Of a stretch of DNA of 64,000 nt, positions 16,716-45,419 are shown one piece after another; within the stretch, counting starts at the first letter, position 1; the number at the start of each line of letters is the position of its first letter. The DNA lies in assembly GCA_037576195.1 (NCBI GenBank), contig CM075102.1, forward strand, positions 30,190,745 through 30,254,744, read 5' to 3'. The position numbers and the translations under genes were made by a program. Origin of the DNA: Phytoseiulus persimilis. Lineage: Eukaryota; Arthropoda; Arachnida; Mesostigmata; Phytoseiidae. The notes below the pieces were generated by a model. The model made no database searches and had not been told where the DNA came from. It worked only from the letters and a program-made list of their open reading frames with translations.

Positions 16716-19700
16716 TCAAGCGCAGTGACACTCGTCAACAATCATGTTCTCAAGCGTGGATTGGTGAACGTTCTTGCCATCGACCGAATACGCTATGTTC
16801 AAGGAGGACATTTTCACTCCGGTACAGCACATGGATAGCTCGATCTTCTTCGCCTGAATAGGATAGTGCTTCATGTAGGCGCTCATGACGATTGTGTGCT
16901 GGCGTTGGAGGTTGACCTCGAGGTTGCACGTTCCTCGGCAGAAGTTCGGTTTGTACGACTTGGGCAAGATAATCCAATCCCAGCCTATTTGGTGGAAGTC
17001 CACCTCGAAGGGGTACCGGCAGCAGCCTGGAGTTTCGTTTTTGAGATCGCAATCTACACTTCTTCGAGTTCTCCTCTTGATCTGCGAGTGATCCATCTTG
17101 AGAATCATGAAAGGGCGCGATTGCTCAGCGTCGATCAGACGCTGTCTCTCCGCTTGCCTGAGGTACGAACACGTCGAGCAAACCACTTGGAGGACTCTTA
17201 TCAGAGGCTGTCTCCTCTGTGTCAGGTTTATTTCCCTTGTCCATTTGCGAGAGAGATTTGTCGTGTCGAATCGCACCCAACCTGGAATTCGAAGAGTCCT
17301 TGTGAAACCGAGCCGTTCGGGATTGATCAGTTTCATCTGAAAACTGCGGCGTTCCTTTTCCCCTCCTAACAGGAAGACTGTTGTCGAAGCTGAAAAACTC
17401 GACTGATAGAGAGAAACCGGACTTACCGCCGCTAGCTGTTCCTTCGGAAGACGCCTCATCGAGACTGCTCTGAACGTCGCTGCGGAATTCCCGCAGCTGG
17501 AAGGAGTGATTTCTTCCAGCAGAGAACGAGAATCCGATTTCCGCGTTGGCAATCACGCGACTCTGGATCTCCCTCGAAATTTGGAACTTTAGACAGATCA
17601 CCGCGTTCTCGTTAGCGCCCGGAGGACACGACAGGTCTGAAACGAGACACCGGGGTTAGCGAATGGTTTTGGGATCCGGGTCGTACCGGATATCTCTCAG
17701 CGGAGGTTCGAGCCTCGTGCGGGCTGTGTTCGAATCGCTGGCCTCGTATTGGGCACGCAGAACGAAGCCTGAACGGAATGGCTCTGAGGTGGGTTCCGTG
17801 TTTGCGTCGAGAGGAATCGCATGCGCGGCATTTAGAGCGAATCAACTCGTCAGCGCACTGAGCCAGCGGGCTCTTCGATCTGCTCCAATGACACGGTAGT
17901 CTCTCGCTCAACGCCGAGCCCTTGACTGAAGGCTCATACACGAAAACATCGTTTCAGGAAGCATCTTAAATGAATTTTTGCGAGCTTCCGCCGCCGTTCG
18001 GCCTGAGGACCGTTTCATCGTCTCCTCTCGCGCGATCGGTTCCTCGTGTTTTCCTTTCCAACGGGCAGCTATGTTTGTGGGTCCGCCCGGTCACCCAAAG
18101 CGAGGTATTCGGGAAATGTTCGTCTGCCGGAACGAACGAAAAGTTGTTATCCGCCGATTAAGAGGGTGAGTATCTTTGAGAAGCGTCCGATTGCGCTGAT
18201 AGCGGGGAATGCCATCAGGGTGACTGCTTGGCGTCACCGATCGCTAACAGTGAGTGTGTACGAGAGTGTTATGATTTGTCCTCGGCCTGGTCAAATATTT
18301 TATCAGCGCCGTCTCACTGGAGGAAGAAGCTCGCAAACAGCTTTCAAGAGCTCTCGCTTGCCTGCTCGCCCGGGCCGGTTGTCAGCCGGCCGGCCGTCCT
18401 ACTTGCCGCTTCTCATTTCGTTCGTCGCGGGTTCGTTGGTCGCCGCTGTGTCATCCTCCCTGGCGGCGGAATCTCGAGTCCCCTTTGCGCCACCGAACTA
18501 TTCTCAAAGCGGTTCTCGACAGCTCCCGGGGCCGGGGAATCCGCGATCAGTTCGGGGCTTCGTTGGATAGCGGCTCATGCGTTTTATCCTTCTCTGAGCT
18601 CCGGGCTTGAGACTCCCGGATTCGAAGTCTTCTCCATAGCTCGAGAAGTTTCAATTGGCCTGCACTGACATGCTGCTGGGTGGTTAAGTTTGTGACTGGC
18701 AAGATTCGCGATCGGGCTCGCGCGGGCGCCCGTAATGATCTCTCATCTTTGATATCTCACTGCCATTCCAGATTGAGTGATAGGCTCCTCGTCGTTCCAC
18801 AACTGCATCCAACGGAGAGATGGTAGCGGTCTGCCGAATCTGGGAACGTTGCCAGCGACCTAGCCGCTCAGTCCGCCAACAAGGCGGTCAGGGAATTTGG
18901 CCTTAGTCTTCACTCGTCGTTCACATTCACTATCAAGACTCGAGAACGAAATCGAGACGAGGAACGCTTGCTAGAGACCGGAGGAACAGACCAGAGCATT
19001 CGACCCCGGAAAACGCCCGAAAATATTCAACATTTCCAGGAATGCGTCGAACCTTTCTTCCGCAACTCGAAAGGGCTCGGTAACGCCCCCGTCCAGGAGG
19101 GCCGAGGCGGTATCGAATATTCACAATGGAAAGCAAGAGCTCTCTCGACCTGCCCCTCTCGATATCGAACGCAGCTCCCATTCTGACAATTCCACCTGTA
19201 TGTATGAGATAGTGGTGAGGAATGACCCTGCCAGGCATCAGCCGGCGTCGACCGCCTGCCCTACGGCAGTGCTCCATGACCGGCAGCCATGGCGAATGTT
19301 AGCACCGAAAACGGTAGCTTGGGAAGAATATCAGTGGTTCCACGCGGTCTGCAACGAGCTCTCGTAGCTTTCAAGAGTTCAGTGTGCGGCGGCAAACGGC
19401 GATCGCTCTTCTCTCGAAGGAAGCATCTCATCTGTCTTCCGAATCTTATCTCATCGGTTCGGCATTCCACGGCGTCAGGTTACATTAGCTTGTTTGTCAG
19501 GCGAAATCTGGCCATCTATAGCCTTCTGGTTGCTTATCGGCTCTTTTTCAAGAGGGAAATGAGTTGGATTCTAGAATAAGAGAGGGAAAGCACCGAGCCG
19601 GCCGTACGTAACCGCCTTTTCCTTTTACCGGTGACCGTAGCAGAGTTCTCCAGACTGCTGACCTCTCCTCGGAAGCAGATAGGTCACGCAAACCGGAAGA

Positions 19701-26934: not shown

Positions 26935-29718
26935 ATGCCTTCGCTTACGCTGTCTGTGCTGTGTTTTCTTCTGAGAGCACAATCGGTTGCGCTTTTGTGT
27001 GCTCAGAGTGCTGGCGAACCGGACGACATCGGAGTCTTGGATTGCCTTCTAGAGCACTACAATGTTCCCGCACGGCCGGAGAATCTCACTGTGGTCGATA
27101 TTTCAGTCCGGACAGAGTCATCCACGACCCCGGACGAAACGAGCCTTGATTACAGGTTCACTGTGACTCTTGAGCACCGATACGTCGATAAGAGGCTTCA
27201 CTTCCAGCCCAGCAACATCACGAACCCCACGCGTAAGTCGCTAACCACTACGCTGAGGAAACGCTTCACTTGTTCTCAAGAGAGCTGCCTCGCTATGACG
27301 ACTCGGTGGGACCCGAGGCGATGTTCAAAGGAGCGCCGGCTGCTCTCGGACAGAGCCGCGCAAACAGTCGGATTACAGACGGAATATGAGGAGTCCCTGC
27401 GAACAGTTGCGAAATCCGTAACGAATTCCAGCCGTGAACGCGTGGTATCATATGGAACGCATCTGGCGGCCGACCATCACGGTCATTGAGAGCAGGAGTG
27501 ACCTTGGTTTCGACCCAGAGAACGCGGCCATGAAAGTCTGGCCGTCTGGTCTGATCGAGCTCACCAGGACGCTGGTCATCGATGTGAGATGTCGAACCGT
27601 GTTCGAATTATTCCCATTCGATAAGCCCCTCTGTCTCATGACGTTCGCCGTGACTGGCTTGACCGCGAACGAGGTAAAAAATCACGGAGTCGAACGATAA
27701 AATTCCGTTCCGTACTCTGCGTCCACTCGGTTTTCTCATTTGTCGCGGGAAAGCTCTCGAAAACCCTCTCATACTCCAGGTTCAACTGCGCTGGCTTAAC
27801 GAACTCGATGAACTATCCTCCTCGTCCACCGTGTTTTTCAATACTTACCTCGAAGCAGAAGACCGCTCAGATTGCCCCCGGGAGCAGATCGAGCAATACC
27901 ACTACTCCTGTCTGAAAGTGAGCGTTCCAAAAACATATGGCCGGATCCTCTCGAATGTCGTCGATTCTTTCCCGAAATCGAGTCGGTCGCACCCAGAGTC
28001 GGTTTGCTCGGGCCCGCGTCGCGGCTGCTACTCTCGTCGAGGGCACCATCAGAAAATCAGAGTCTCGTATTCTGCTTAGCCGGTTCAGTTTGCGCTCCAT
28101 TTTTCTCAGGCACTCCTGCTCTTCACGCGCGAACGCAGCGTTTACTGGGTTACCGTCTTCATTCCGGGATTCATTATGGTCACTTCTTCATTTATGACCT
28201 TTTGGCTTTCGCTGAGAGCGCCTCAACCCAGGGTCATGATCGGTGAGTTCAGAGCGCGCGCACTTCATCTCGATCATGTCACTTCCCGTTTCTCCCTTAT
28301 CTTTTCCCGTCGAGCCGACCGATTCCCGTCTCCCTATCCTCCGATCGCTCCAACACTCTTTCCATCATCCTCTTTGGTATGGCACTCATGTCCTCCATAA
28401 AGTAATGGTTTTCGAACAATGGTTGTCCATGGAGAGAAGATTCCTTGCATTGCTTGCGGCATCGCCTTTGGACATCCCGACATGCTTTTTGCTCTGATAT
28501 ACAATAGCTTGTCTTGGATCGCCGCTCCACGCGAATCTATTCTATCTCGACAGCCAGTAACCGATTGAAAACGTGAAGAGTTCAAGCCACTGCTCGGGGC
28601 AGGCAGCTGTCTCCACCTCGCTGAAAGGAATTTCATACATTACCCACCGGTGAATTTTATTCGCCATACATCTGACAAATTTTGGTATTCGTGAGGACAT
28701 TCGGTTCCGAAGGCTGTCGGACAAATCGCCCGCTTCGTTTGTTCCGACCTGCTCTACCGCTTCGTTAGTTGAAAAAGCATCAAAGAAGTCAAAGTCCTCG
28801 AGGCGTTTTGCTTCAATGGGAGCAAGCTCGTTCTCAGAATGAATCCTTTGCGTTTTGCACTGCTCGTTCGAGGATTTGCGAGTGCGATGTTTGTGAAGTC
28901 AGGGGAGCTTTCCTCCTTGTAACCTAATTAGGCGCAGCGAGCAGGCGGAAGCGACATAAGCTCAAATGAAGGGAAGACCTTCCGTCGGTACTCTTGGTTC
29001 ATTGATCCACTCATGCATAAAACAACGATATTTGGACGGGAGAGAAGAAATAGGAAATTGAGGTCGAAAACTCTTTGCCGCTCTCGGCAACTTCTTCCTC
29101 CTACCATTACAACTACCTCCTCTACTAAGCAGGGAGGGAAACGGAAGACTCTGGGAAGGAGGGATCAGGCATTGGTGGTGCACATCATCAGTGTTCCTTA
29201 CGACTTCCGAAGCAAGGAATCCACCGAGAGGGAAAGGATGAACGAAACTATCCACCCACCAACGAAGGTCTTACTCTCTTCCAGGAACGACAACTCGGCT
29301 GAACTTCCTTTCGACGGCCAGGTCCTTCCGGAACAAGCTCCCTGCCTTTTCCAATTTAGTCGCCCTGAATATTTGGGACTCTGTGTCTATTATCTTCATT
29401 TACATTAGCCTTGTGGAGTTCATCTTGGCCGATTATGTGGATCGCCATCCTCGCAGCAACGAGGAGGAAGACGCTCGATACCTAGAGGCCACGCGGTCGC
29501 CTGGCTACGCGCTCACGGCTAAGGAACGACTCCTACTCTATTTCAGGAGATCCAACAAACAAATAGCCTCGGACATCGAGTGGTTCTCGAGGATCGTTTT
29601 CCCTATTCTTTATTTTGGTTTCATCGTTGGATATTTCATCGCATACGAAGGACACTTTAGCCACAGTGTGGGTTACACATACGGAGCTTTTGAACGACTA
29701 ATCAGTACGAGTGTTTAG
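26935..29718 (+). CDS. Divergent Cys-loop ligand-gated channel subunit, copy 1 (5 exons)
   Basis: Predicted plasma-membrane pentameric receptor-channel subunit of about 414 residues. Exons: 26935-27232, 27432-27673, 27780-27917, 28110-28242, 29285-29718; phases 1, 0, 0, 1. Residues 1-27 look like a signal peptide. LLEHYNVPARPE is typical of the glutamate/GABA/glycine receptor N-terminus. The Cys-loop is C153-x13-C167 with FPFD inside. A second pair, C212-x11-C224, matches the extra disulfide of glycine, GluCl and HisCl receptors. Membrane segments lie at about 237-259, 268-288, 301-322 and 372-391, with a short M3-M4 loop. The M2-M3 region (SFRNKLPAFSNLVALNIWDS) recalls the insect pHCl/Hodor-like zinc- or pH-gated chloride channels; that comparison is from memory. 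The selectivity motif is QPR rather than PAR. Intron 4 is 1042 bp. A paralogue lies 3.7 kb downstream. The ligand cannot be deduced. Confidence 0.9.
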
Positions 29719-33439: not shown

Positions 33440-36215
33440 ATGCAGAATAGGCTCTTGACCGTCTTCCTGTCTATTCTTCCCTCGTGTCTGGGCGATTGTG
33501 TTCAAAGCTCGGACGATGTGATCGTTTTGGACTGCATCTTCGACCGTTACGACGTTTCGAAACGGCCTGAGCCGGACTCGACTGTGAACGTTTCGATGTT
33601 CGTGGAATCGATTGCTTCTTCTGAGGAAACGAGCCTCGACTACAACTTCCGCATAAGACTGACGCATCACTACATTGATGAGAGGCTCCAATACGATCCG
33701 GGGAACAAAGGCGCGCTGCGAGGTAGGATCAGAACATTCGAATGAGATGAAGCTACTCGCTCCCATCCCAACTCGGCATCGTATCGCATAGGCTGATGAT
33801 TCGATCTGGTCCTCAGGTCTGAATGCGTGGCATCATCTGGACCGCATGTGGCGACCTTTTGTGGTGGTTATAGAAAACCGGAACATTCTGGATCTCAACC
33901 CTGCCGATCAGACGTTGCGGGTGTGGCCCACGGGGCTCGTTGAGTACACCCGCTCCATGGAACTCGACTTGACGTGTCGCACACTCCTCGATGTTTTCCC
34001 ATTTGATTTTCCGACTTGCTTAATAACCCTCACCGTTTCTGGCTTCAATGAGAACGAAGTAAGCATGCGCGTGATTTCTACGAACTCGTCTGCCGACATT
34101 GAACCCGAAACCCCCAGGCTCTTGGAGTTCATCACAATGCCGAAGGCCTGATACGTCGCCAGCGCGGTTGGGTTTTCGGTTGTTTGCAGCATCTCCCTCT
34201 TGTTCGCAGGTGAAACTCAACTGGGTCGATGAGGTCCTATCCATGACCGGCACCACTTTCTACAATGCTTACCCGGTGAGATACGCATCGTCAAGCTGCA
34301 CTCGAGAAGAGCGCAATGCTTATAACTCTACGTGTCTCAAGGTAATTTGGACACGAATATGTTCTGATACGGTACTGATTCCAAGAGACAAAATACTCGA
34401 TCGGCTGCATGTGAAGTGAGCGCTGGCCGGGGAGGTTGGAGAAATGCGCCTCAGTGGAGATGCATGTCCTACGGCATTCTATGTGTTGAGCCGGGTGACC
34501 GTGGCTGGTTCACCCAAAGAGAAATGGCCCCTCCCCCCCCCTTAACCATATATGCTCATCATGAAAAGGTAGTTCCGTCCGCAAAGTCCTCGCCAGTTCG
34601 TTACGAAGAGTCGCTTCAGTCCAACACTAGCTTCTTTGCACTTGACCGACCAGGGCCGTTCAACGCCTGAGAGGTTCAAACGAACGATGGCTGGGAGAGG
34701 GGAAACGAAAAATCCATCGAATCCCCCTGATGGAAACCTATGAGTCTCTTTCCATGGGAATACGCACAGCCTTGAGCAGAAATCGCGAGTTTTTGGCGAA
34801 ATTGAGCAAGATGGTTCTCGTGTCGCTGAAGAACGAATATTAGGGGTCCAAATGTCTTCTCTGCGATGTGGGACCGCGCATTGTGGTGATGGAGGATGAC
34901 TGCTAGCCTCGAGACGAGCCTGGATTGCTTCCTCAGCAACGCAACATGCCCTCGTTCTAGCTGGGCAGAGAGTACCTCGGCAGCGATGGTTTCGCCAGGT
35001 TTCATGAATTCGTTATGAATGTTTCTGCGCTATCCCACCAAACGCAGAGCAGGACCTTTTTCGATTGCTTTCTCGCTTTGCGTGCGCCGGAGCAGCCGTT
35101 CCTTTGGGAACCCAGGAACGGCTCCGCGTTTCGTTGACCGAGCGGCGACAACAATCGGAAGTTGTTTCCGATCGCAAACGGCCCGTGTTTCTCCCAGGGC
35201 GCGTCAAAGTTCGAGAATGCGAAAACCGGGAAAAACTTCTTTGGACCCCTAATATTTCGATTAAATGAAATCTTAGGCCTCCCGGGGACATTGCGAGACA
35301 ACCCACAGTTTTCCCGAATCCATTGGGATGGAATAGCAAAGAAGCTTCTCTCGAGGCGAACCAGTTGCGGACACACAAGATAACGTGCTGCAAACCGCAT
35401 TTTCTCTTTGGCACCCTTCGTTGATCACTCTCTGTCACTTTCTTATATCTCTGAGCGAAAGCCAAATTACGGTAATATTGAGAAAATTCGGCGATTTCAA
35501 ACCTCTCAACGGCAAAATGATTCTTCCAGACAATGATATTGTTCTCTCGGGATCGTGGAACATATTGGGTGACAGTATTCATCCCGGGTTTCATCCTGGT
35601 CACATCCTCGTTTATGGCGTTCTGGGTATCTATCAAATGCGTTCCTCCCAGGGCCATGATCGGTGAGTAGCTGGCTCGGCACTCCGATTGCGCGCCGCAG
35701 CGAGCGAGGAACCGTTAGCGCCCCGTTCCGTATCATAATTAAAATTCATTATCACAAACGTGAGGGCAGTCCATTTTCCTATCGATTCTGCAGGAACGAA
35801 TAATCGTCTGACGTTTCTTTCGGCGGCGAGCTCGTTCAGGAATCGGTTGCCCGCAGTTTCAAACTTGGAAGCATTGAATCTCTGGGACTCTGTATCGATC
35901 TTATTCATCTACGTCAGCCTCCTCGAGTTAATTATCGTCGACCATCTGGAACGCCACCCGAGAGACGGGCAGGAAGCCGATTTGGAATTCCGTCAGAAAG
36001 CACTACAGCGACCGGACCTCACTCATTGGGAACGCTTTTGTTTATATTTCCGCAAGCCTAACACGCAGATCGCCAGTGATATCGATGTGTGGTCTCGTGG
36101 AGTGTTCCCGATTTTGTATTTTGCTTTCATCATCGGCTATTTCGTAACGTATCAGGGTTACTACGCTAACAATATTGATTATACCTATAAAACCTTCGAG
36201 TCGCTCATAAGTTAG
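33440..36215 (+). CDS. Divergent Cys-loop ligand-gated channel subunit, copy 2 (5 exons)
   Basis: Paralogue of the gene at 26935-29718, about 403 residues. Exons: 33440-33722, 33817-34058, 34210-34341, 35530-35662, 35794-36215. Phases 1, 0, 0, 1 equal those of copy 1, and exons 2 and 4 have the same lengths (242 and 133 bp). The start at 33440 gives a signal peptide (MQNRLLTVFLSIL...); the frame is open further upstream, but that extension has no such sequence. Cys-loop C148-x13-C162 holds FPFD. The second pair is C205-x11-C217. M1 begins at YWVTVFIPGF (residue 231). M2 and the following linker hold TNNRLTFLS, SFRNRLPA and NLWDS. The selectivity motif is PPR with Met at the 2' site. Intron 3 (34342-35529) holds an antisense mariner remnant. 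Function is inferred from the family as a ligand-gated, probably anion-conducting channel. Co-assembly with copy 1 is possible but unproven. Confidence 0.9.
34840..35145 (-). pseudogene. Degenerate mariner transposase fragment in intron 3
   Basis: On the minus strand the translation gives, in order, SRSWVPKGTAAPAHAK, KKVLLCVWWD, MKPGETIAAEVL and VILHHHNARSHIA. These match the central part of mariner/Tc1-family transposases (KKVMLCIWWD, LKPGETI, HDNARPH). The catalytic aspartate of HDNARPH is His here. A one-base frame change separates CVWWD from KPGETI, next to an in-frame TGA. No N- or C-terminal transposase domain or terminal inverted repeats were recognised, so it is an old, truncated, inactive copy lying antisense to the host gene. 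Confidence 0.75.
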
Positions 36216-36687
36216 GTCGGTGTATGTGTTGATGATTTTTTCTCAAAGTCGTAATATATAGGACATGCTTCTCAAGTATGCACCCAGAAGATGAAACCAA
36301 CTTTCTTTCCCATTATTTCTCCTCGCTCCGTTTGAAACAGCTCCTCGCGGTTATCTCATGGACAGTCGACTCTGAAGGCCCCTCTCCACCATCTGACACG
36401 AGGCTGTGTTCTAGAACTGCGCTGATTCCCCCAGAGTGCTGAAATTTGGACATTTCTCTAGAGTTCTCGGAAACCGAACACACAGGACGGATGCGGACAT
36501 GACCATTCTTATTGCGTACTAGCCGGCCGCTGGCTGGCCTGTCCCTTGCTTCGGGAGTCAACTGCTGACAGACACACATTGCCTTACATGTAGTGTCATG
36601 AGACCGTCGGGAGTGGCCACCGATTCTCGATAGGATTCTGACCTGGAATCGAGGCACTTTTCTCTCTCTTCACTTGATCAGCATCGT
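36216..36687. other. Spacer between channel copy 2 and the tandem array
   Basis: About 470 bases holding the 3' untranslated region of channel copy 2. There is no clear AATAAA; an AATATA variant occurs at about 36252. I see no gene. Confidence 0.5.
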
Positions 36688-36863
36688 GGTTTTGAGAAGT
36701 ATGGTCAGATAGGTGTCGTAATCACCCCTACAGATTCGGAGAAGCATGGTCAGATTGGTCCCGGAATCACCCCTCCAGCTTTCGAAAAGTATGGTCAGAC
36801 TGGTACCGGGATCACCTCTTCAGACTCGGAAGAGTATGTTGAGATTGGTCCCGAAATCACCCC
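36688..36863. repeat. Short diverged array of the 45-bp repeat
   Basis: Four strongly diverged units of the same 45-bp family as the main array (TATGGTCAGATNGGT...GGAATCACC), ending in CACCCC immediately before the tail at 36864-36941. The divergence suggests these units have escaped the homogenisation seen in the main array. Confidence 0.85.
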
Positions 36864-36941
36864 AATGTCTTCCAGGAAAAGTGCGGACAAACTGACAAAC
36901 TTACAAATTGACAGACTAAGCTGATTACATATAGTAAGGAT
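36864..36941. repeat. Array tail, copy 1
   Basis: Non-repetitive sequence that follows the small array: GTGCGGACAAACTGAC, then an extra 18 or so bases, then AGACTAAGCTGATTACATA and TAGTAAGGAT. Nearly the same sequence ends the main array at 42853-42914, so array plus tail behaves as one repeated module. Confidence 0.85.
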
Positions 36942-39900
36942 CGGTGCCGGAATTACCCCTCCAGGTTTTGAAAAATATGGTTGGATCGGTTCCGGAATCA
37001 CCCCTCCAGGTTTTGAAAAGTATGGTCAGATCGGTTCCGGAATCACCCCTCCAGGTTTTGAAGAGTATGGTCAGATCGGTTCCGGAATCACCCCTCCAGA
37101 GTTGGAAAGTAATGGTCAGATTGGTCCCGGGATCACCCCACCAGGTTTTGAAAAGTATGGTCAGATCGGTTCCGAAATCACCCCTCCAGGTTTTGAAAAG
37201 TATGGTCAGATCGGTTTCGGAATCACCCCTCCAGAGTTGGAAAGTAATGGTCAGATTGGTCCCGGAATCACCCCTCCAGAGTTGGAAAGTGATGGTCAGA
37301 TCGGTCCCGGAATCACCCCTCCAGGTTTTGAAAAGTATGGTCAGATCGGTTCCGGAATCACCCCTCCAGGTTTTGAAAAGTATGGTCAGATCGCTTCTGG
37401 AATCACTCCTCCAGGTTTTGAAAAGTATGGTCAGATCGGTTCCGGAATCACCCCTCCAGGTTTTGAAAAGTATGGTCAGATTGGTCTCGGAATCATTCCT
37501 CCAGAGTTGGAAAATAATGGTCAGATTGGTCTCGGAATCACTCCTCCAGAGTTGGAAAATAATGGTCAGATTGGTCTCGGAATCAGCCCTCCAGAGTTGG
37601 AAAATAATGGTCAGACTGGTCCCGGAATCACCCCTCCAGATTTGGGAATCAATGGTCAGATTGGTTTCGGAATCACCCCTCCAGAGTTGGAAAATAATGG
37701 TCAGATTGGTTTCGGAATCACCCCTCCAGAGTTAGAAAGTAATGGTCAGATTGGTCCCGGAATCACCCCTCCAGAGTTGGGAAATAATGGTCAGACTGGT
37801 CCCGGAATCACCCCTCCAGAGTTGGGAATCAATGGTCAGATTGGTTTCGGAATCACCCCTCCAGAGTTGGAAAGTAATGGTCAGATTGGTCCCGGAATCA
37901 CCCCTCCAGAGTTGGGAAGTGATGGTCAGATTTGTCTCGGAATCATTCCTCCAGAGTTGGAAAATAATGGTCAGATTGGTCTCGGAATCACCCCTCCAGA
38001 GTTGGAAAATAATGGTCAGATTGGTCTCGGAATCAGCCCTCCAGAGTTGGGAAATAATGGTCAGACTGGTCCCGGAATCACCCCTCCAGAGTTGGGAATC
38101 AATGGTCAGATTGGTTTCGGAATCACCCCTCCAGAGTTGGAAAATAATGGTCAGATTGGTTTCGGAATCACCCCTCCAGAGTTGGAAAGTAATGGTCAGA
38201 TTGGTCTCGGAATCACCCCTCCAGAGTTGGGAAATAATGGTCAGATTGGTCCCGGAATCATTCCTCCAGAGTTGGAAAATAATGGTCAGATTGGTCTCGG
38301 AATCACCCCTCCAGAGTTCGAAAGTAATGGTCAGATTGGTCCCTGAATCACCCCTCCAGAGTTGGGAAGTGATGGTCAGATTTGTCTCGGAATCATTCCT
38401 CCAGAGTTGGAAAATAATGGTCAGATTGGTCGCGGAATCACCCCTCCAGAGTTGGAAAATAATGGTCAGATTGGTCTCGGAATCAGCCCTCCAGAGTTGG
38501 GAAATAATGGTCAGACTGGTCCCGGAATCACCCCTCCAGAGTTGGGAATCAATGGTCAGATTGGTTTCGGAATCACCCCTCCAGAGTTGGAAAATAATGG
38601 TCAGATTGGTTTCGGAATCACCCCTCCAGAGTTGGAAAGTAATGGTCAGATTGGTCCCGTAATCACCCCTCCAGAGTTGGGAAGTGATGGTCAGATTTGT
38701 CTCGGAATCATTCCTCCAGAGTTGGAAAATAATGGTCAGATTTGTCTCGGAATCATCCCTCCAGGTTTTGAAAAGTATGGTCAGATCGGTTCCGAAATCA
38801 CCCCTCCAGGTTTTGAAAAGTATGGTCAGATCGGTTTCGGAATCACCCCTCCAGAGTTGGGAAGTGATGGTCAGATTTGTCTCGGAATCATTCCTCCAGA
38901 GTTGGAAAATAATGGTCAGATTTGTCTCGGAATCATTCCTCCAGAGTTGGAAAATAATGGTCAGATTTGTCTCGGAATCATCCCTCCAGGTTTTGAAAAG
39001 TATGGTCAGATCGGTTCCGAAATCACCCCTCCAGGTTTTGAAAAGTATGGTCAGATTGGTCCCGGAATCACCCCTCCAGAGTTGGGAAGTGATGGTCAGA
39101 TTTGTCTCGGAATCATTCCTCCAGAGTTGGAAAATAATGGTCAGATTGGTCTCGGAATCACCCCTCCAGAGTTGGAAAATAATGGTCAGATTGGTCTCGG
39201 AATCAGCCCTCCAGAGTTGGGAAATAATGGTCAGACTGGTCCCGGAATCACCCCTCCAGAGTTAGAAAGTAATGGTCAGATTGGTCGCGGAATCACCCCT
39301 CCAGAGTTGGGAAATAATGGTCAGATTGGTTTCGGAATCACCCCTCCAGAGTTAGAAAGTAATGGTCAGATTGGTCCCGGAATCACCCCTCCAGAGTTGA
39401 GAAATAATGGTCAGATTGGTCCCGGAATCACCCCTCCAGAGTTGGAAAGTGATGGTCAGATCGGTCCCGGAATCACCCCTCCAGGTTTTGAAAAGTATGG
39501 TCAGATTGGTCTCGGAATCATTCCTCCAGAGTTGGAAAATAATGGTCAGATTGGTTTCGGAATCACCCCTCCAGAGTTAGAAAGTAATGGTCAGATTGGT
39601 CCCGGAATCACCCCTCCAGAGTTGGGAAATAATGGTCAGATTGGTCCCGGAATCACCCCTCCAGAGTTGAGAAATAATGGTCAGATTGGTCCCGGAATCA
39701 CCCCTTCAGAGTTGGGAAGTGATGGTCAGATTTGTCTCGGAATCACCCCTCCAGGTTTTGAAAAGTATGGTCAGATTGGTCTCGGAATCATTCCTCCAGA
39801 GTTGGAAAATAATGGTCAGATTGGTTTCGGAATCACCCCTCCAGAGTTAGAAAGTAATGGTCAGATTGGTCCCGGAATCACCCCTCCAGAGTTGGGAAAT

Positions 39901-42852
39901 AATGGTCAGATTGGTTTCGGAATCACCCCTCCAGAGTTGAGAAATGATGGTCAGATTGGTCCCGGAATCACCCCTTCAGAGTTGGGAAGTGATGGTCAGA
40001 TCGGTCCCGGAATCACCCCTCCAGGTTTTGAAAAGTATGGTCAGATTGGTCTCGGAATCATTCCTCCAGAGTTGGAAAATAATGGTCAGATTGGTTTCGG
40101 AATCACCCCTCCAGAGTTAGAAAGTAATGGTCAGATTGGTCCCGGAATCACCCCTCCAGAGTTGAGAAATAATGGTCAGATTTGTCTCGGAATCATTCCT
40201 CCAGAGTTGGAAAATAATGGTCAGATTGGTCCCGGAATCACCCCTTCAGAGTTGGGAAGTGATGGTCAGATTTGTCTCGGAATCATTCCTCCAGAGTTAG
40301 AAAGTAATGGTCAGATTGGTCCCGGAATCACCCCTCCAGAGTTGAGAAATAATGGTCAGATTGGTCCCGGAATCACCCCTCCAGAGTTGGAAAGTTATGG
40401 TCAGATCGGTCCCGGAATCACCCCTCCAGGTTTTGAAAAGTATGGTCAGATTGGTCTCGGAATCATTCCTCCAGAGTTGGAAAATAATGGTCAGATTGGT
40501 TTCGGAATCACCCCTCCAGAGTTAGAAAGTAATGGTCAGATTGGTCCCGGAATCACCCCTCCAGAGTTGGGAAATAATGGTCAGATTGGTTTCGGAATCA
40601 CCCCTCCAGAGTTAGAAAGTAATGGTCAGATTGGTCCCGGAATCACCCCTCCAGAGTTGGGAAATAATGGTCAGACTGGTCCCGGAATCACCCCTTCAGT
40701 GTTGGGAATCAATGGTCAGATTGGTTTCGGAATCACCCCTCCAGAGTTGGAAAGTAATGGTCAGATTGGTCCCGGAATCACCCCTTCAGAGTTGGGAAGT
40801 GATGGTCAGATTTGTCTCGGAATCATTCCTCCAGAGTTGGAAAATAATGGTCAGATTGGTCTCGGAATCAGCCCTCCAGAGTTGGGAAATAATGGTCAGA
40901 CTGGTCCCGGAATCACCCCTCCAGAGTTGGGAATCAATGGTCAGATTGGTTTCGGAATCACCCCTCCAGAGTTGGAAAATAATGGTCAGATTGGTTTCGG
41001 AATCAGCCCTCCAGAGTTGGGAAATAATGGTCAGACTGGTCCCGGAATCACCCCTCCAGAGTTGGGAATCAATGGTCAGATTGGTTTCGGAATCACCCCT
41101 CCAGAGTTGGAAAATAATGGTCAGATTGGTTTCGGAATCACCCCTCCAGAGTTGGAAAGTAATGGTCAGATTGGTCTCGGAATCACCCCTCCAGAGTTGG
41201 GAAATAATGGTCAGATTGGTCCCGGAATCATTCCTCCAGAGTTGGAAAGTTATGGTCAGATCGGTCCCGGAATCACCCCTCCAGGTTTTGAAAAGTATGG
41301 TCAGATTGGTCTCGGAATCATTCCTCCAGAGTTGGAAAATAATGGTCAGATTGGTCCCGGAATCACCCCTTCAGAGTTGGGAAGTGATGGTCAGATTTGT
41401 CTCGGAATCATTCCTCCAGAGTTAGAAAGTAATGGTCAGATTGGTCCCGGAATCACCCCTCCAGAGTTGAGAAATAATGGTCAGATTGGTCCCGGAATCA
41501 CCCCTCCAGAGTTGGAAAGTTATGGTCAGATCGGTCCCGGAATCACCCCTCCAGGTTTTGAAAAGTATGGTCAGATTGGTCTCGGAATCATTCCTCCAGA
41601 GTTGGAAAATAATGGTCAGATTGGTTTCGGAATCACCCCTCCAGAGTTAGAAAGTAATGGTCAGATTGGTCCCGGAATCACCCCTCCAGAGTTGGGAAAT
41701 AATGGTCAGATTGGTTTCGGAATCACCCCTCCAGAGTTAGAAAGTAATGGTCAGATTGGTCCCGGAATCACCCCTCCAGAGTTGGGAAATAATGGTCAGA
41801 CTGGTCCCGGAATCACCCCTTCAGTGTTGGGAATCAATGGTCAGATTGGTTTCGGAATCACCCCTCCAGAGTTGGAAAGTAATGGTCAGATTGGTCCCGG
41901 AATCACCCCTTCAGAGTTGGGAAGTGATGGTCAGATTTGTCTCGGAATCATTCCTCCAGAGTTGGAAAATAATGGTCAGATTGGTCTCGGAATCAGCCCT
42001 CCAGAGTTGGGAAATGATGGTCAGACTGGTCCCGGAATTACCCCTCCAGAGTTGGGAATCAATGGTCAGATTGGTTTCGGAATCACCCCTCCAGAGTTGG
42101 AAAATAATGGTCAGATTGGTCTCGGAATCAGCCCTCCAGAGTTGGGAAATAATGGTCAGACTGGTCCCGGAATCACCCCTCCAGAGTTGGGAATCAATGG
42201 TCAGATTGGTTTCGGAATCACCCCTCCAGAGTTGGAAAATAATGGTCAGATTGGTTTCGGAATCACCCCTCCAGAGTTGGAAAGTAATGGTCAGATTGGT
42301 CTCGGAATCACCCCTCCAGAGTTGGGAAATAATGGTCAGATTGGTCCCGGAATCATTCCTCCAGAGTTGGAAAATAATGGTCAGATTGGTTTCGGAATCA
42401 CCCCTCCAGAGTTGGGAAATAATGGTCAGACTGGTCCCGGAATCACCCCTCCAGAGTTGGGAATCAATGGTCAGATTGGTTTCGGAATCACCCCTCCAGA
42501 GTTGGAAAATAATGGTCAGATTGGTTTCGGAATCACCCCTCCAGAGTTGGAAAGTAATGGTCAGATTGGTCTCGGAATCACCCCTCCAGAGTTGGGAAAT
42601 AATGGTCAGATTGGTCCCGGAATCATTCCTCCAGAGTTGGAAAATAATGGTCAGATTGGTTTCGGAATCACCCCTCCAGAGTTGGAAAGTATGGTCAGAT
42701 TGGTCCCGGAATCACCCCTCCAGAGTTGGGAAGTGATGGTCAGATTTGTCTCGGAATCATTCCTCCAGAGTTGGAAAATAATGGTCAGATTGGTCTCGGA
42801 ATCACCCCTCCAGAGTTGGAAAGTGATGGTCAGATCGGTTCCGGAATCACCC
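36942..42852. repeat. 45-bp tandem repeat array (~131 copies)
   Basis: A 5.9-kb array of 45-bp units with the core AATGGTCAGATTGGT, then CTCGGAATCACCCCT and CCAGAGTTGGAAA. Variant units recur (GGTTTTGAAAAGTAT, GTTGGGAATCAAT, GTTGGGAAGTGAT, GTTAGAAAGTAAT types) and are shared between distant parts of the array. Because 45 is divisible by three and the unit lacks stops in two plus-strand frames, very long open frames appear. The longest reads as a 15-residue repeat (GITPPELENNGQIGL). That frame has no ATG anywhere, a TGA at 38344-38346 and a one-base deletion near 42690. The other open frame has ATG in each unit but is broken by TAG in GAGTTAG units. I treat it as a non-coding minisatellite. 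Confidence 0.93.
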
Positions 42853-42914
42853 AATATATTCTCGACGGAGTGCGGACAAACTGACAGACTAAGCCGATTA
42901 TATATAGTAAGGAT
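42853..42914. repeat. Array tail, copy 2
   Basis: Follows the main array directly: GTGCGGACAAACTGACAGAC, then TAAGCCGATTATATATAGTA and AGGAT. It matches the tail at 36864-36941 except for an internal gap and a few substitutions. The end contains an AT-rich, partly self-complementary TATATATA core. Confidence 0.85.
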
Positions 42915-45419
42915 GGAGTAAGAGATGGGTTTGCCGGAGTGACGGGTACCTGCGGGTTTGCAGCGGGTGACCGCGGCTCCGGGGCAGGAGCGCGGTTTGC
43001 TTCGCGTTTTTTTGAGACCCCCATTTCCAGCGGTTCTCTCCAGAGACGATTCTTCCTCTCGTGGGACTTTGACGGCGGATATTCACCCGCGTCCTTGCGC
43101 TTTATGACATAGATGAGATGGATATCCGATCGCTGCTGACTCCTCGATATCCGGAGTTGGAAGTCGCTCAGAAGTGATACCTACATAAAGAGTCGCGTGG
43201 AGCTGATGATCGAGTCTTGTATATGACCGGTCTTCCAGAATGCTCGTTCTGTGATTCAGGTGTTGATGAATGAGGACATAGCTTTCACATACGGGGAGGG
43301 AAACGAGGTGCGTGCATCCATTCGCAGACAGATTCAGGGGCCGGGCCAATGATGACGATCTCTGTCCCGGAGCTCCCTTTCCCTGAGCTAGGCACAAACT
43401 ATTCGATGGCTGGGACATACATCAGCCGGAGCGCTTGGCCTCTATGGCTCCATCCCTGAGATTCCGAGACCAGCACGGCTCACGGCTGTGTCTTGGATAT
43501 GGATGTCGTAGAACACGCAAATGCCGTTGTCGTGGATCGGGTTTCTAGATTCCATCTCCATAACAGATTTTTCACGAAATACACTGTGAGTGAAGCCGGA
43601 GCTGGGTCATATTTTTACCGAGATACCGAAATACCGAGAAATGGGCATCCGAGATTTTTGGTTTGCCCCACGACCCTCGCGAGCTTCTGCGGCATACGCA
43701 AACACAGTTCATGAAAAGTGAACTCAGTTCAGTGGATTGCGCGATTTCCTACAGAGTACCTACGTCGTTCCTCAAAATGGTCCTCAAAACGAAGATCTTC
43801 CTAGAATCAGCCGCCAGAGCTTGCCGAAAGATCGTGTCTGGGACTTCTGAGCCATCTGAGTCACTCCTCATCAAGTGAGAACGCAGTTGTGGATCTCCCG
43901 GACGCGACTGGAGTTCATTTATTCCTGGCTCGGCAGTCAGTGGCACTAGCGTAGCAAGGGGGGCAGCGTATCGCCCACCCCGGGAATCACGACATCCTTC
44001 TGGCATCCGGCGACGGCATTCGCCGAATCCTACCTCGCGTCCCGGAACTCCCATGGGCCCCACAGGTGGCGGGATCTCCCTCTAGCGGACTTGTTATCGG
44101 ATCCTTCGCCATGAGGGCATCAGATTGAGAAAATTTCCGCCAGTAGGGGCATCAGATTGAGCTCCTCCCCGAGCATCATCGAGCGTCGCTACGCCGCTGG
44201 TCAGTGGAGTCACGCTGATCCTTGCTGACTCTTCGAGCATACCAGGATTCATCCATGAGCTGACCAAGAGCGTCATCCCTGATGCGCCCAGAACCTCCAG
44301 GGAACACACGGCAGCCTCGATGAATGTGTGAGGCGCAGAGTGGAGCCAGTCATTCCCCGCGATTACGACTACGATCGAGTCAAAAGGGTGACAGAGCTCG
44401 TCTTCAGGGATTGACGCGACGTTCAGTCCTCCAGGAGCGGCGCTCTCGCTGTCGATAACGGAGTTTATAAATAAAAATGGTTCTCTCTGCAGAAACGTAG
44501 GAACACGTCATCGTACAAATATATTTAGAAATGCATACTTCTGTTTCTCCAGTTCAGGTCTCGCTTCTCACAGCGCATCTTTGCTCGCATCTTTCTGCGA
44601 TTTTCAATGCAAGAAGCTACGGGCCCTCTCCATGAAATTCCGCCCCCGCGAGATGTTCGTATCCTCCACGACAGTGCCATCGAGTGCTTCCCTCCAGCGA
44701 GTCTCCGACGGCAAGACGACCTGAGGTTTCCCTCCTCCGCCTCTTCCCTTCCCGGGCCTTTTTCCAAAATGGCTTCCCGAGCTCTCCGCGGAGTCGAACA
44801 CCTCGTCCATTCAATTTTTCGAACGTAGATGAAAAGCAGTTGATCGAGTCGACTTGCTTCATATATTCAACTTTTATTAAATTTTTACACTATCGATGGA
44901 GTCACCAGCTGGAATAGACGAAGTTTGTGTAGCAGAGTCAGGCTAAGACTGTGAGCGACGCAGCTTACTTCGACCCGACGGAACGATAAACAACGCCAAA
45001 CATCGAAAATGGGAACCCGAGCGGCAGCCTGTGAGTTGACTACCGAATCATGACCAACATTCTGTGAAACAGTCTTCCCCTCGACTGGCTTCGGTGACAC
45101 TTCGAGCTATCTTTTGAAGTAGAAATGCTTCCCACTTTGGGCGTCACTAGTTGGGAATGAAGACTTTTGTAGGCATATGAAACGGAACCAGATCGTAACG
45201 GCCAACTCGCGACAGTAATTCCGGCTCAGCGACCTCTTCGAAGGAAATCCTCTCGAAACAACCTCTCGGGTGTGAACAATAGCTGTCGGATAGCAGCACA
45301 TGTGAAACTCCTTCGGTGACACCGATCCTCGACACAGATTCCGAAACTAACAAATTCCACACGATAGGAATGGTGAACTTGAGAGTGTTCATGGAAAGCG
45401 GGGGATTAAGACGATCAAC
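42915..45419. other. Region between array and UNC79
   Basis: No complete gene recognised. The minus strand is open from about 44490 to 44094 without an ATG and is described separately. Other open stretches (43083-43418 minus, 43749-44063 minus, 43493-43714 plus) look weakly coding-like but lack recognisable domains. The right end must hold the promoter and 5' leader of UNC79, though no core promoter motif is clear. Confidence 0.45.
44094..44490 (-). pseudogene. Open stretch with SGNH-hydrolase-like segment
   Basis: About 130 codons are open on the minus strand with no starting ATG until 44309. The stretch FDSIVVVIAGNDWLH resembles the VVVxxGxND block of SGNH/GDSL hydrolases, a domain found in several retrotransposon proteins as well as host esterases. 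The nucleophile Ser block (GDS) is not seen upstream. It ends at a stop after SWRRIR. This could be a decayed retroelement fragment, an isolated exon, or chance. The family call is weak. Confidence 0.25.

Follow-up and report, generated by a model that had tools for sequence, protein, structure and literature searches.

Two tandem arrays in the mite Phytoseiulus persimilis very probably form one composite, non-coding Helitron with an internal minisatellite

The window analysed here, a 64,000-nucleotide stretch of Phytoseiulus persimilis DNA (GenBank assembly GCA_037576195.1, contig CM075102.1, positions 30,190,745 to 30,254,744 of the forward strand), contains a small and a large array of 45-bp units, each followed by a short non-repetitive tail. 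This block is very probably a composite, non-coding, canonical Helitron (a rolling-circle transposon) on the minus strand. A preliminary description of the window had proposed a composite element that contains a minisatellite and has a defined right end, and genome-wide searches show such an element to be dispersed, as the tail occurs 280 times and the opposite edge 330 times. The right end is indeed defined, but it is the 5' end of the element because the element lies on the minus strand. Read on that strand, family members consist of the 5' end TCCTTACTATATATAATCGGCTTAGTC, the 45-bp array and a short 3' segment that contains an 18-nt palindrome and terminates in CTGG; with the slash marking the element boundary, the window copy terminates in CTAG/T instead of CTGG/T.

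Termini and insertion sites

According to the accessible part of PMC4067079, canonical Helitrons begin with 5' TC, end in 3' CTRR with a palindrome of 16-20 nt about 11 bp from the 3' end, and insert between A and T without target-site duplication. The family is alike in its 5' TC, its 3' CTRR with palindrome, its A/T insertion and the lack of any visible target duplication. On the minus strand, the tail reads A/TCCTTACTATATATAATCGG with its host base, and the left edge closes with GGCCGACTCCAGTCGGCCAAAGGCCGGCTGG. Among 66 distinct right ends collected by the inner 16-mer of the tail, nine of which share a satellite context and may stem from a single event, 59 read GGA/T or GGGA/T (TCC... reversed), as do both 5' ends in the window; two have no terminus and five are truncated, fused or altered. 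At the other edge, the host base A precedes the 3' terminus in all 47 distinct left ends, a base that the search pattern excludes by beginning two bases inside the element. CTGG was read in 46 of these 47, counted with a pattern that comes from the CTGG subfamily and omits the final two bases, while CTAG is found in the window and in L042.

When the two flanks of a copy are joined, 19 of 20 pairs, the window included, read A/T, and the exception (A/C) has a truncated end; L075 and L077 in this set have one right flank, and one additional pair, lacking a right terminus, was left out. Inspection of 16 pairs by eye showed no target duplication. Constant target-site duplications, which had been named as a possible mark of the element, are thus not seen, as is expected because a Helitron inserts between A and T. 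Candidate empty sites come from two insertions, at L055 and L067, that sit in copies of one unrelated repeat. The joined L067/L068 flanks align without gaps over the junction to the L055 flank (76% over 162 columns, with gaps elsewhere) and the joined L055/L056 flanks align over the junction to the L067 flank (74% over 94 columns), although the two alignments are reciprocal, concern one repeat family and are not independent. The other 18 joined-flank queries gave no empty site among the loci compared, three of them returning trivial self-matches.

Outside the 3' end, the left flanks carry a TTATA-like motif at -9 to -5, with T in 30 of 47 at -9 and in 34 of 47 at -6. TTAT, TATA or ATAA occurs in the 14 bases beside the end in 32 of 47 flanks, versus 6 of 47 in a stretch 20 bases farther out, and the window flank TCTTATTGCGTA fits the motif. 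In the main subfamily, the 18-nt palindrome lies 13 nt from the 3' terminus, the final 23 nt fold as a 10-bp hairpin, and the 3' 62-mer reaches a z of -2.2, with 4 of 200 shuffles folding as well. Transposition of such an element would start at the 5' end and stop at the 3' palindrome plus CTRR.

Dispersal of the tail, the array and the opposite edge

The genome searched comprises 180,977,233 bases with four large contigs and about 51% GC. The SL1 spliced-leader pattern, which would indicate a nematode, has no exact match in it. The tail 16-mer gave 280 exact matches (150 forward, 130 reverse; 0 and 1 for the reversed control), so the tail is dispersed and not confined to this locus, the outcome that had been named as refuting such an element, and its final 21 bases gave 718 matches at up to three mismatches (control 0). 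In 19 of 20 loci fetched from the 21-mer matches (16 on contig C1 without an adjacent exact inner 16-mer and four on C2 outside the span of the listed 16-mer matches), at least one array unit lies upstream of the tail at the threshold set, and the remaining locus, L106, has a partial unit by eye. Viewed from the side of the array, the tail is present in nine of 10 distinct arrays with the right end in view, in a sample biased toward the tail by being fetched with an array-plus-tail query; L035 and L036 show its inner part only. The expectation that every array ends in the tail held for these nine and failed for one, the array of L038.

Copies also share a second constant edge, which begins with ACCAGCCGGCC and runs for about 100 bp to the first array unit. 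Its inner 29-mer has 330 matches at up to two mismatches (control 0), which bears out the suggestion of a constant left edge. The window element likewise extends left beyond 36688, to this edge at 36519, where the host A (36518) is followed by the divergent form CTAGCCGGCC. On C1, a listed tail lies within 12 kb on the same strand for 29 of the 43 left ends listed, a lower bound since the tails listed are exact matches only; the distances range from 399 to 10,991 bp with a median of 2109.

Contig C1 itself starts within a family copy (C1:1-600, L133), and no telomere repeat was found in its first 200 and last 200 bases. At C2:2512003-2537534, about 30 matches of the unit variant GTGCGGATTGG are spread across 25 kb of a single strand; they probably mark a very long array with units of a diverged type.

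A protein-coding copy with the same ends

A relative that shares the family ends and, as judged from its sequence, carries a gene for a Rep/helicase protein lies at C3:24444287-24453759. This 9.5-kb copy has both ends and the 45-bp array common to the family, and, as in canonical Helitrons, Rep (PF14214) and the PIF1 helicase lie in one frame. The Helitron_like_N (PF14214) match is at C3:24450345 in an open frame of 1951 amino acids (aa), and the PIF1 match (PF05970) is at C3:24452196, in a frame of the same 1951-aa length. In the profile search, Helitron_like_N matched the genome 101 times and none of 14 control genomes. The frame is preceded by 54 array units and by a stack of several 5' ends that starts at C3:24444287, and it is followed by CTGG/T at C3:24453759. 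The initial 90 bp or so equal those of two non-coding copies except at a single base and in how many short TGTCAGTT repeats they have, and the 3' end differs from that of a non-coding copy at two positions in the last 48 bp and nine in the last 60. These likenesses in sequence and the Rep and PIF1 domains make the C3 copy the likely autonomous partner of the non-coding copies, and its protein, or that of a close relative, may mobilise the several hundred other copies, of which those read are non-coding.

Around this copy (C3:24444100-24453960; L177, L175), the left and right host DNA are inverted copies of each other over about 100 bp, and an inverted 5' terminus (TTATATATAGTAAGGAT) lies directly beyond the 3' end.

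Structure and origin of the composite

The window element has one 3' end and two 5' ends and is read as a short complete element (E1) joined to a second, incomplete one (E2):

36519..42913, minus strand: whole composite, a very probable Helitron of 6395 bp, with host A at 36518 and host T at 42914
36519..36940, minus strand: E1, complete short element of 422 bp, with 3' CTAG at 36519-36522, 5' TC at 36939-36940 and ends like those of other copies
36519..36690, minus strand: 3' terminal segment of E1, of the divergent CTAG type, as in L042
36688..36863, minus strand: small 45-bp array of E1 (3.6 copies at 36701-36863 by Tandem Repeats Finder)
36881..36940, minus strand: 5' terminal region of E1, the first tail
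36941..36942, no strand: junction where the 5' end of E1 meets the array of E2, inside a unit, at the A^T of CAGA^TCGG
36942..42869, minus strand: main array of E2 and subterminal stretch (131.2 units at 36948-42852 by Tandem Repeats Finder); the remaining array and the 3' end are absent
42870..42913, minus strand: 5' terminal region of E2, the second tail

Both arrays are where the preliminary description had placed them, and each closes in a matching tail. Tandem Repeats Finder assigns period 45 to the two, with 88% matches in the main array, and the difference between 131.2 and 3.6 copies, about 36-fold, agrees with the reported expansion of more than 30-fold; it is a matter of the ordinary expansion and contraction of arrays. 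Units of the main array are 0.87-0.90 identical at each lag from 1 to 40 (mean pairwise identity 0.88), with no clear higher-order unit over these lags. Searched at up to three mismatches, GTGCGGACAAACTGAC occurs in the window only at 36881 and 42870, both exact and on the plus strand, and both tails terminate in AGTAAGGAT, at 36941 and 42914. The tails are similar without being identical: counted from GTGCGG, the first tail has 61 nt, 16 of them additional, against 45 nt in the second, and elsewhere they differ at two of 45 positions. Because the bases directly preceding GTGCGG also differ and the second form recurs in L002, the two tails are read as two subfamilies.

The two modules do have the same orientation, but they are not two whole copies, since only the first has a left (3') end while the second is fused at an A^T inside a unit. 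E2 keeps its 5' end (42913) and a long array without a 3' end, and its array starts at 36942 with CGGTGCC, which corresponds to the A^T of the unit's CAGATCGG. That E1 and E2 meet at the A^T inside a unit therefore indicates nested insertion, pointing to a composite that arose in this way and then moved or was trimmed as one unit (36519-42913). E1 would have inserted at the A^T within a repeat unit of E2, after which a later transposition may have begun at the 5' end of E2 and halted at the first terminator encountered, that of E1, thereby leaving behind the remaining array and the 3' end of E2. The chances that the composite took this route from the nested insertion appear evenly balanced.

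Alternatively, the composite could have been completed after nesting by recombination of E1's 3' segment with that of E2, and not by a transposition stopped by a terminator. The two segments would have been direct repeats, and the product would be identical, so that the loss of the outer 3' end can be inferred by either of two routes. Nothing speaks directly against such a recombination, but the several stacked 5' ends and one 3' end of the C3 copy would need repeated events, and we consider it a real possibility that falls somewhat short of an even chance.

An open frame of 1519 aa traverses the array (38362-42921). Since it has no Pfam match at E 0.01 and the unit variant TTTAGATTGG, found in L031 and L102, introduces a stop into it, the frame is probably a by-product of the 45-bp period and not a gene. 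Such a frame carries a risk of mis-annotation.

Nested and stacked copies in the genome

Nested insertion into array units is well supported beyond the window. The pattern of a unit joined to a 5' end has 119 genome matches at up to two mismatches (control 0), mostly unit variants, and 17 of these are candidate junctions, seven without mismatch and ten with one mismatch beginning GTAAGGAT. Six of the 17 were confirmed as true 5' ends, namely the window, C1:2116343, C1:2158036, C1:2160149 and two in the C3 copy; beyond the window, A^T joins of 5' ends to units occur in L006, L007, L102 and the C3 copy. Junctions at CAGA between a unit and a 3' end number 14 when matched exactly, and 46 with up to two mismatches versus 13 in the control. 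One nested copy apparently has both junctions, at C1:2116343 and C1:2118693.

Family DNA adjoins six of 47 left ends, one flank being a unit (L047) and five being the family's own 5' terminus (two in L040, then L138, L149 and L151). Head-to-head fusions at the A^T of a family 5' end occur at 11 sites (up to two mismatches; control 0). With 718 tails and a median length of 2.1 kb, the family would occupy about 0.8% of the genome, so that the six flanks among 47 exceed expectation more than tenfold, a rough estimate in which two of the six belong to one cluster. Perhaps the minisatellite and the TA-rich 5' end serve as landing pads, the family inserting preferentially at its own A^T sites and such nests then yielding elements with stacked 5' ends and a single 3' end. 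If so, the array would be a working part and growth route of the element and not a passenger. We regard this as doubtful, and the excess could be due to nothing more than the target motif, given the TATATA in the 5' end.

The 5' terminus is often stacked as partial repeats (TCCTTACTATCCTTATCCTTACTATATA, or AAGGATAAGGAT on the opposite strand), as in L177 (187-700), L024, L058, L060, L086 and L109. An inverted 5' terminus beyond the 3' end is also seen in L040 (two copies), L138, L149 and L151.

Several observations weigh against the proposed identity and history. The 3' end of the window copy folds no better than shuffles (z -0.15), and a search for an empty counterpart of the window insertion yielded none, its joined flanks matching only their own two halves. 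In the C3 copy, the Rep and PIF1 domains rest on profile matches and their activity is predicted at most, and the 3' segment common to this copy and the non-coding copy compared with it spans only about the last 48 bp. As joins of units to 3' ends are about as frequent as joins to 5' ends, composites would not arise only by a stop at the first terminator. Finally, an inverted 5' terminus lies just beyond the 3' end in six of 48 left ends, and the simple model fails for some of these; where the rest of the host copy is missing, nested insertion gives no explanation.

Other origins of the repeated module

A local segmental duplication of an array with its flank, followed by expansion of one array through unequal exchange, is very unlikely. 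The window modules are adjacent and in the same orientation, tandem array-plus-tail modules also occur in L102, and a right flank is duplicated at C1:47152164 and C1:47154961. On the other hand, the tail and the opposite edge recur 280 and 330 times in the genome, the window tails are of different types, and by eye the small array is made of units like the initial and final ones of complete elements elsewhere, its first units resembling those of L040 and its last those of other complete copies. Duplication is thereby refuted as a source of the module and could account only for the pairing. The duplicated flank belongs to two neighbouring copies at C1:47151424-47156886, whose right flanks are identical, whose left flanks are different and whose arrays differ by 360 bp (8 units).

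A cut-and-paste or foldback DNA transposon, with the tail and array as inverted termini, seems marginally less probable again. Head-to-head copies (L003, L039, L040), tails at both ends in L005 and L013, and the six left ends with an inverted 5' terminus directly beyond the 3' end would fit such an element. Inverted termini at both ends are not the rule, however, 42 of 48 left ends having no inverted 5' terminus; the head-to-head copies are interpreted as insertions into a 5' end of the family itself, at its A^T, for which 11 sites were found (control 0), and copies like L005 and L013 share one satellite context and may be duplicates of a single event. In this context, L005, L013, L090, L157, L158, L159, L163, L165 and L170 are GGGAT-end copies with similar flanks within the dispersed GATTCGAATC satellite, and it seems that another repeat multiplied one insertion there.

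Least probable of all, and hardly credible, is the 3' end of a non-LTR (long terminal repeat) retrotransposon, that is, a long interspersed nuclear element (LINE), with the array as its 3' untranslated region, or a short interspersed element mobilised by a LINE: a LINE frame does stop directly before array and tail in L094/L113 and the tail can contain AAGGAT repeats, but the LINE beside the L094 array has its own terminal sequence TGCGGAAAATCCGCGAATAAATCGCTATTATT, mostly followed by unrelated DNA, only three of its 20 fetched copies touch an array of the family, and target duplications were not seen by eye in the 16 pairs. The LINE 3' end TGCGGAAAATCCGCGAATAAATCGCTATT directly adjoins the family array in L094/L113, L116 and L118, and in L038 the inverted array that has no tail splits a LINE in which ORF1-like and endonuclease-like stretches occur.

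A self-cleaving ribozyme at the left edge is likewise not credible. No Rfam model reached its gathering score in the window. Five loci yielded 23 matches at E up to 10, none of which attained the gathering score of its model; microRNA and sRNA models scored highest, on the head-to-head palindromes in L040.

Comparison with known systems

Chimeric Helitrons can arise when a terminator is passed. The window composite resembles them in that one copy's end is combined with the other end of a neighbour, and differs in that the neighbour is of the same family and is joined inside the array. Compared with canonical Helitrons, the family is unusual in its 45-bp minisatellite between the 5' end and the gene, present in the coding copy too, and in its stacked 5' ends and the TTATA-like motif 5-9 bp outside the 3' end.

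A tandem core is already known from other rolling-circle elements, such as DINE-1/HINE, as described in the available part of PMC4067079, and Cg_HINE of the oyster, for which the accessible text of PMC7492417 gives an array core, no duplication and a TT preference. As far as these partial sources go, the likeness extends to being non-coding, rolling-circle and dispersed, with a tandem array (in some or all) between constant flanks and no target duplication, but those elements are of the Helentron type, with T-rich or TT sites and subterminal inverted repeats, whereas the present family has A^T sites and TC/CTRR ends. Insertion at TT in T-rich DNA, which marks Helentrons and HINE, is not what was found, given A/T in 19 of 20 joined pairs. 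The family thus differs by its A^T type and by the array in a coding copy. Helitrons have been discussed as a source of satellite-like arrays (review PMC9659126, in the part available), and a study of two predatory mites, to which it ascribes three chromosomes in males and six in females, reports Helitrons at 0.99%, the words tandem repeat and minisatellite not occurring in the accessible part of its text (PMC6902594).

The family links a dispersed minisatellite to its carrier, with coding and non-coding copies that have the same array in one genome. It therefore allows tests of how Helitrons spread, how satellite-like DNA is built and how composites form from nested copies, and it illustrates how elements can stack up through insertion into one another.

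Gene setting in the window

A plus-strand exon (35760-36215), whose stop lies about 300 bp upstream of the composite, resembles the transmembrane part of a ligand-gated chloride channel. Its best match is pHCl-A (21wy, E 1.1e-14), and PF02932 scores 24.8 bits, below the cut-off of 28.1. As pHCl is a channel of arthropods, the exon suggests arthropod DNA. An upstream frame at 26935-27486 has the ligand-binding domain (PF02931). Farther off, a minus-strand exon at 16719-17552 carries a TGF-beta (transforming growth factor beta) domain (PF00019, E 1.4e-24).

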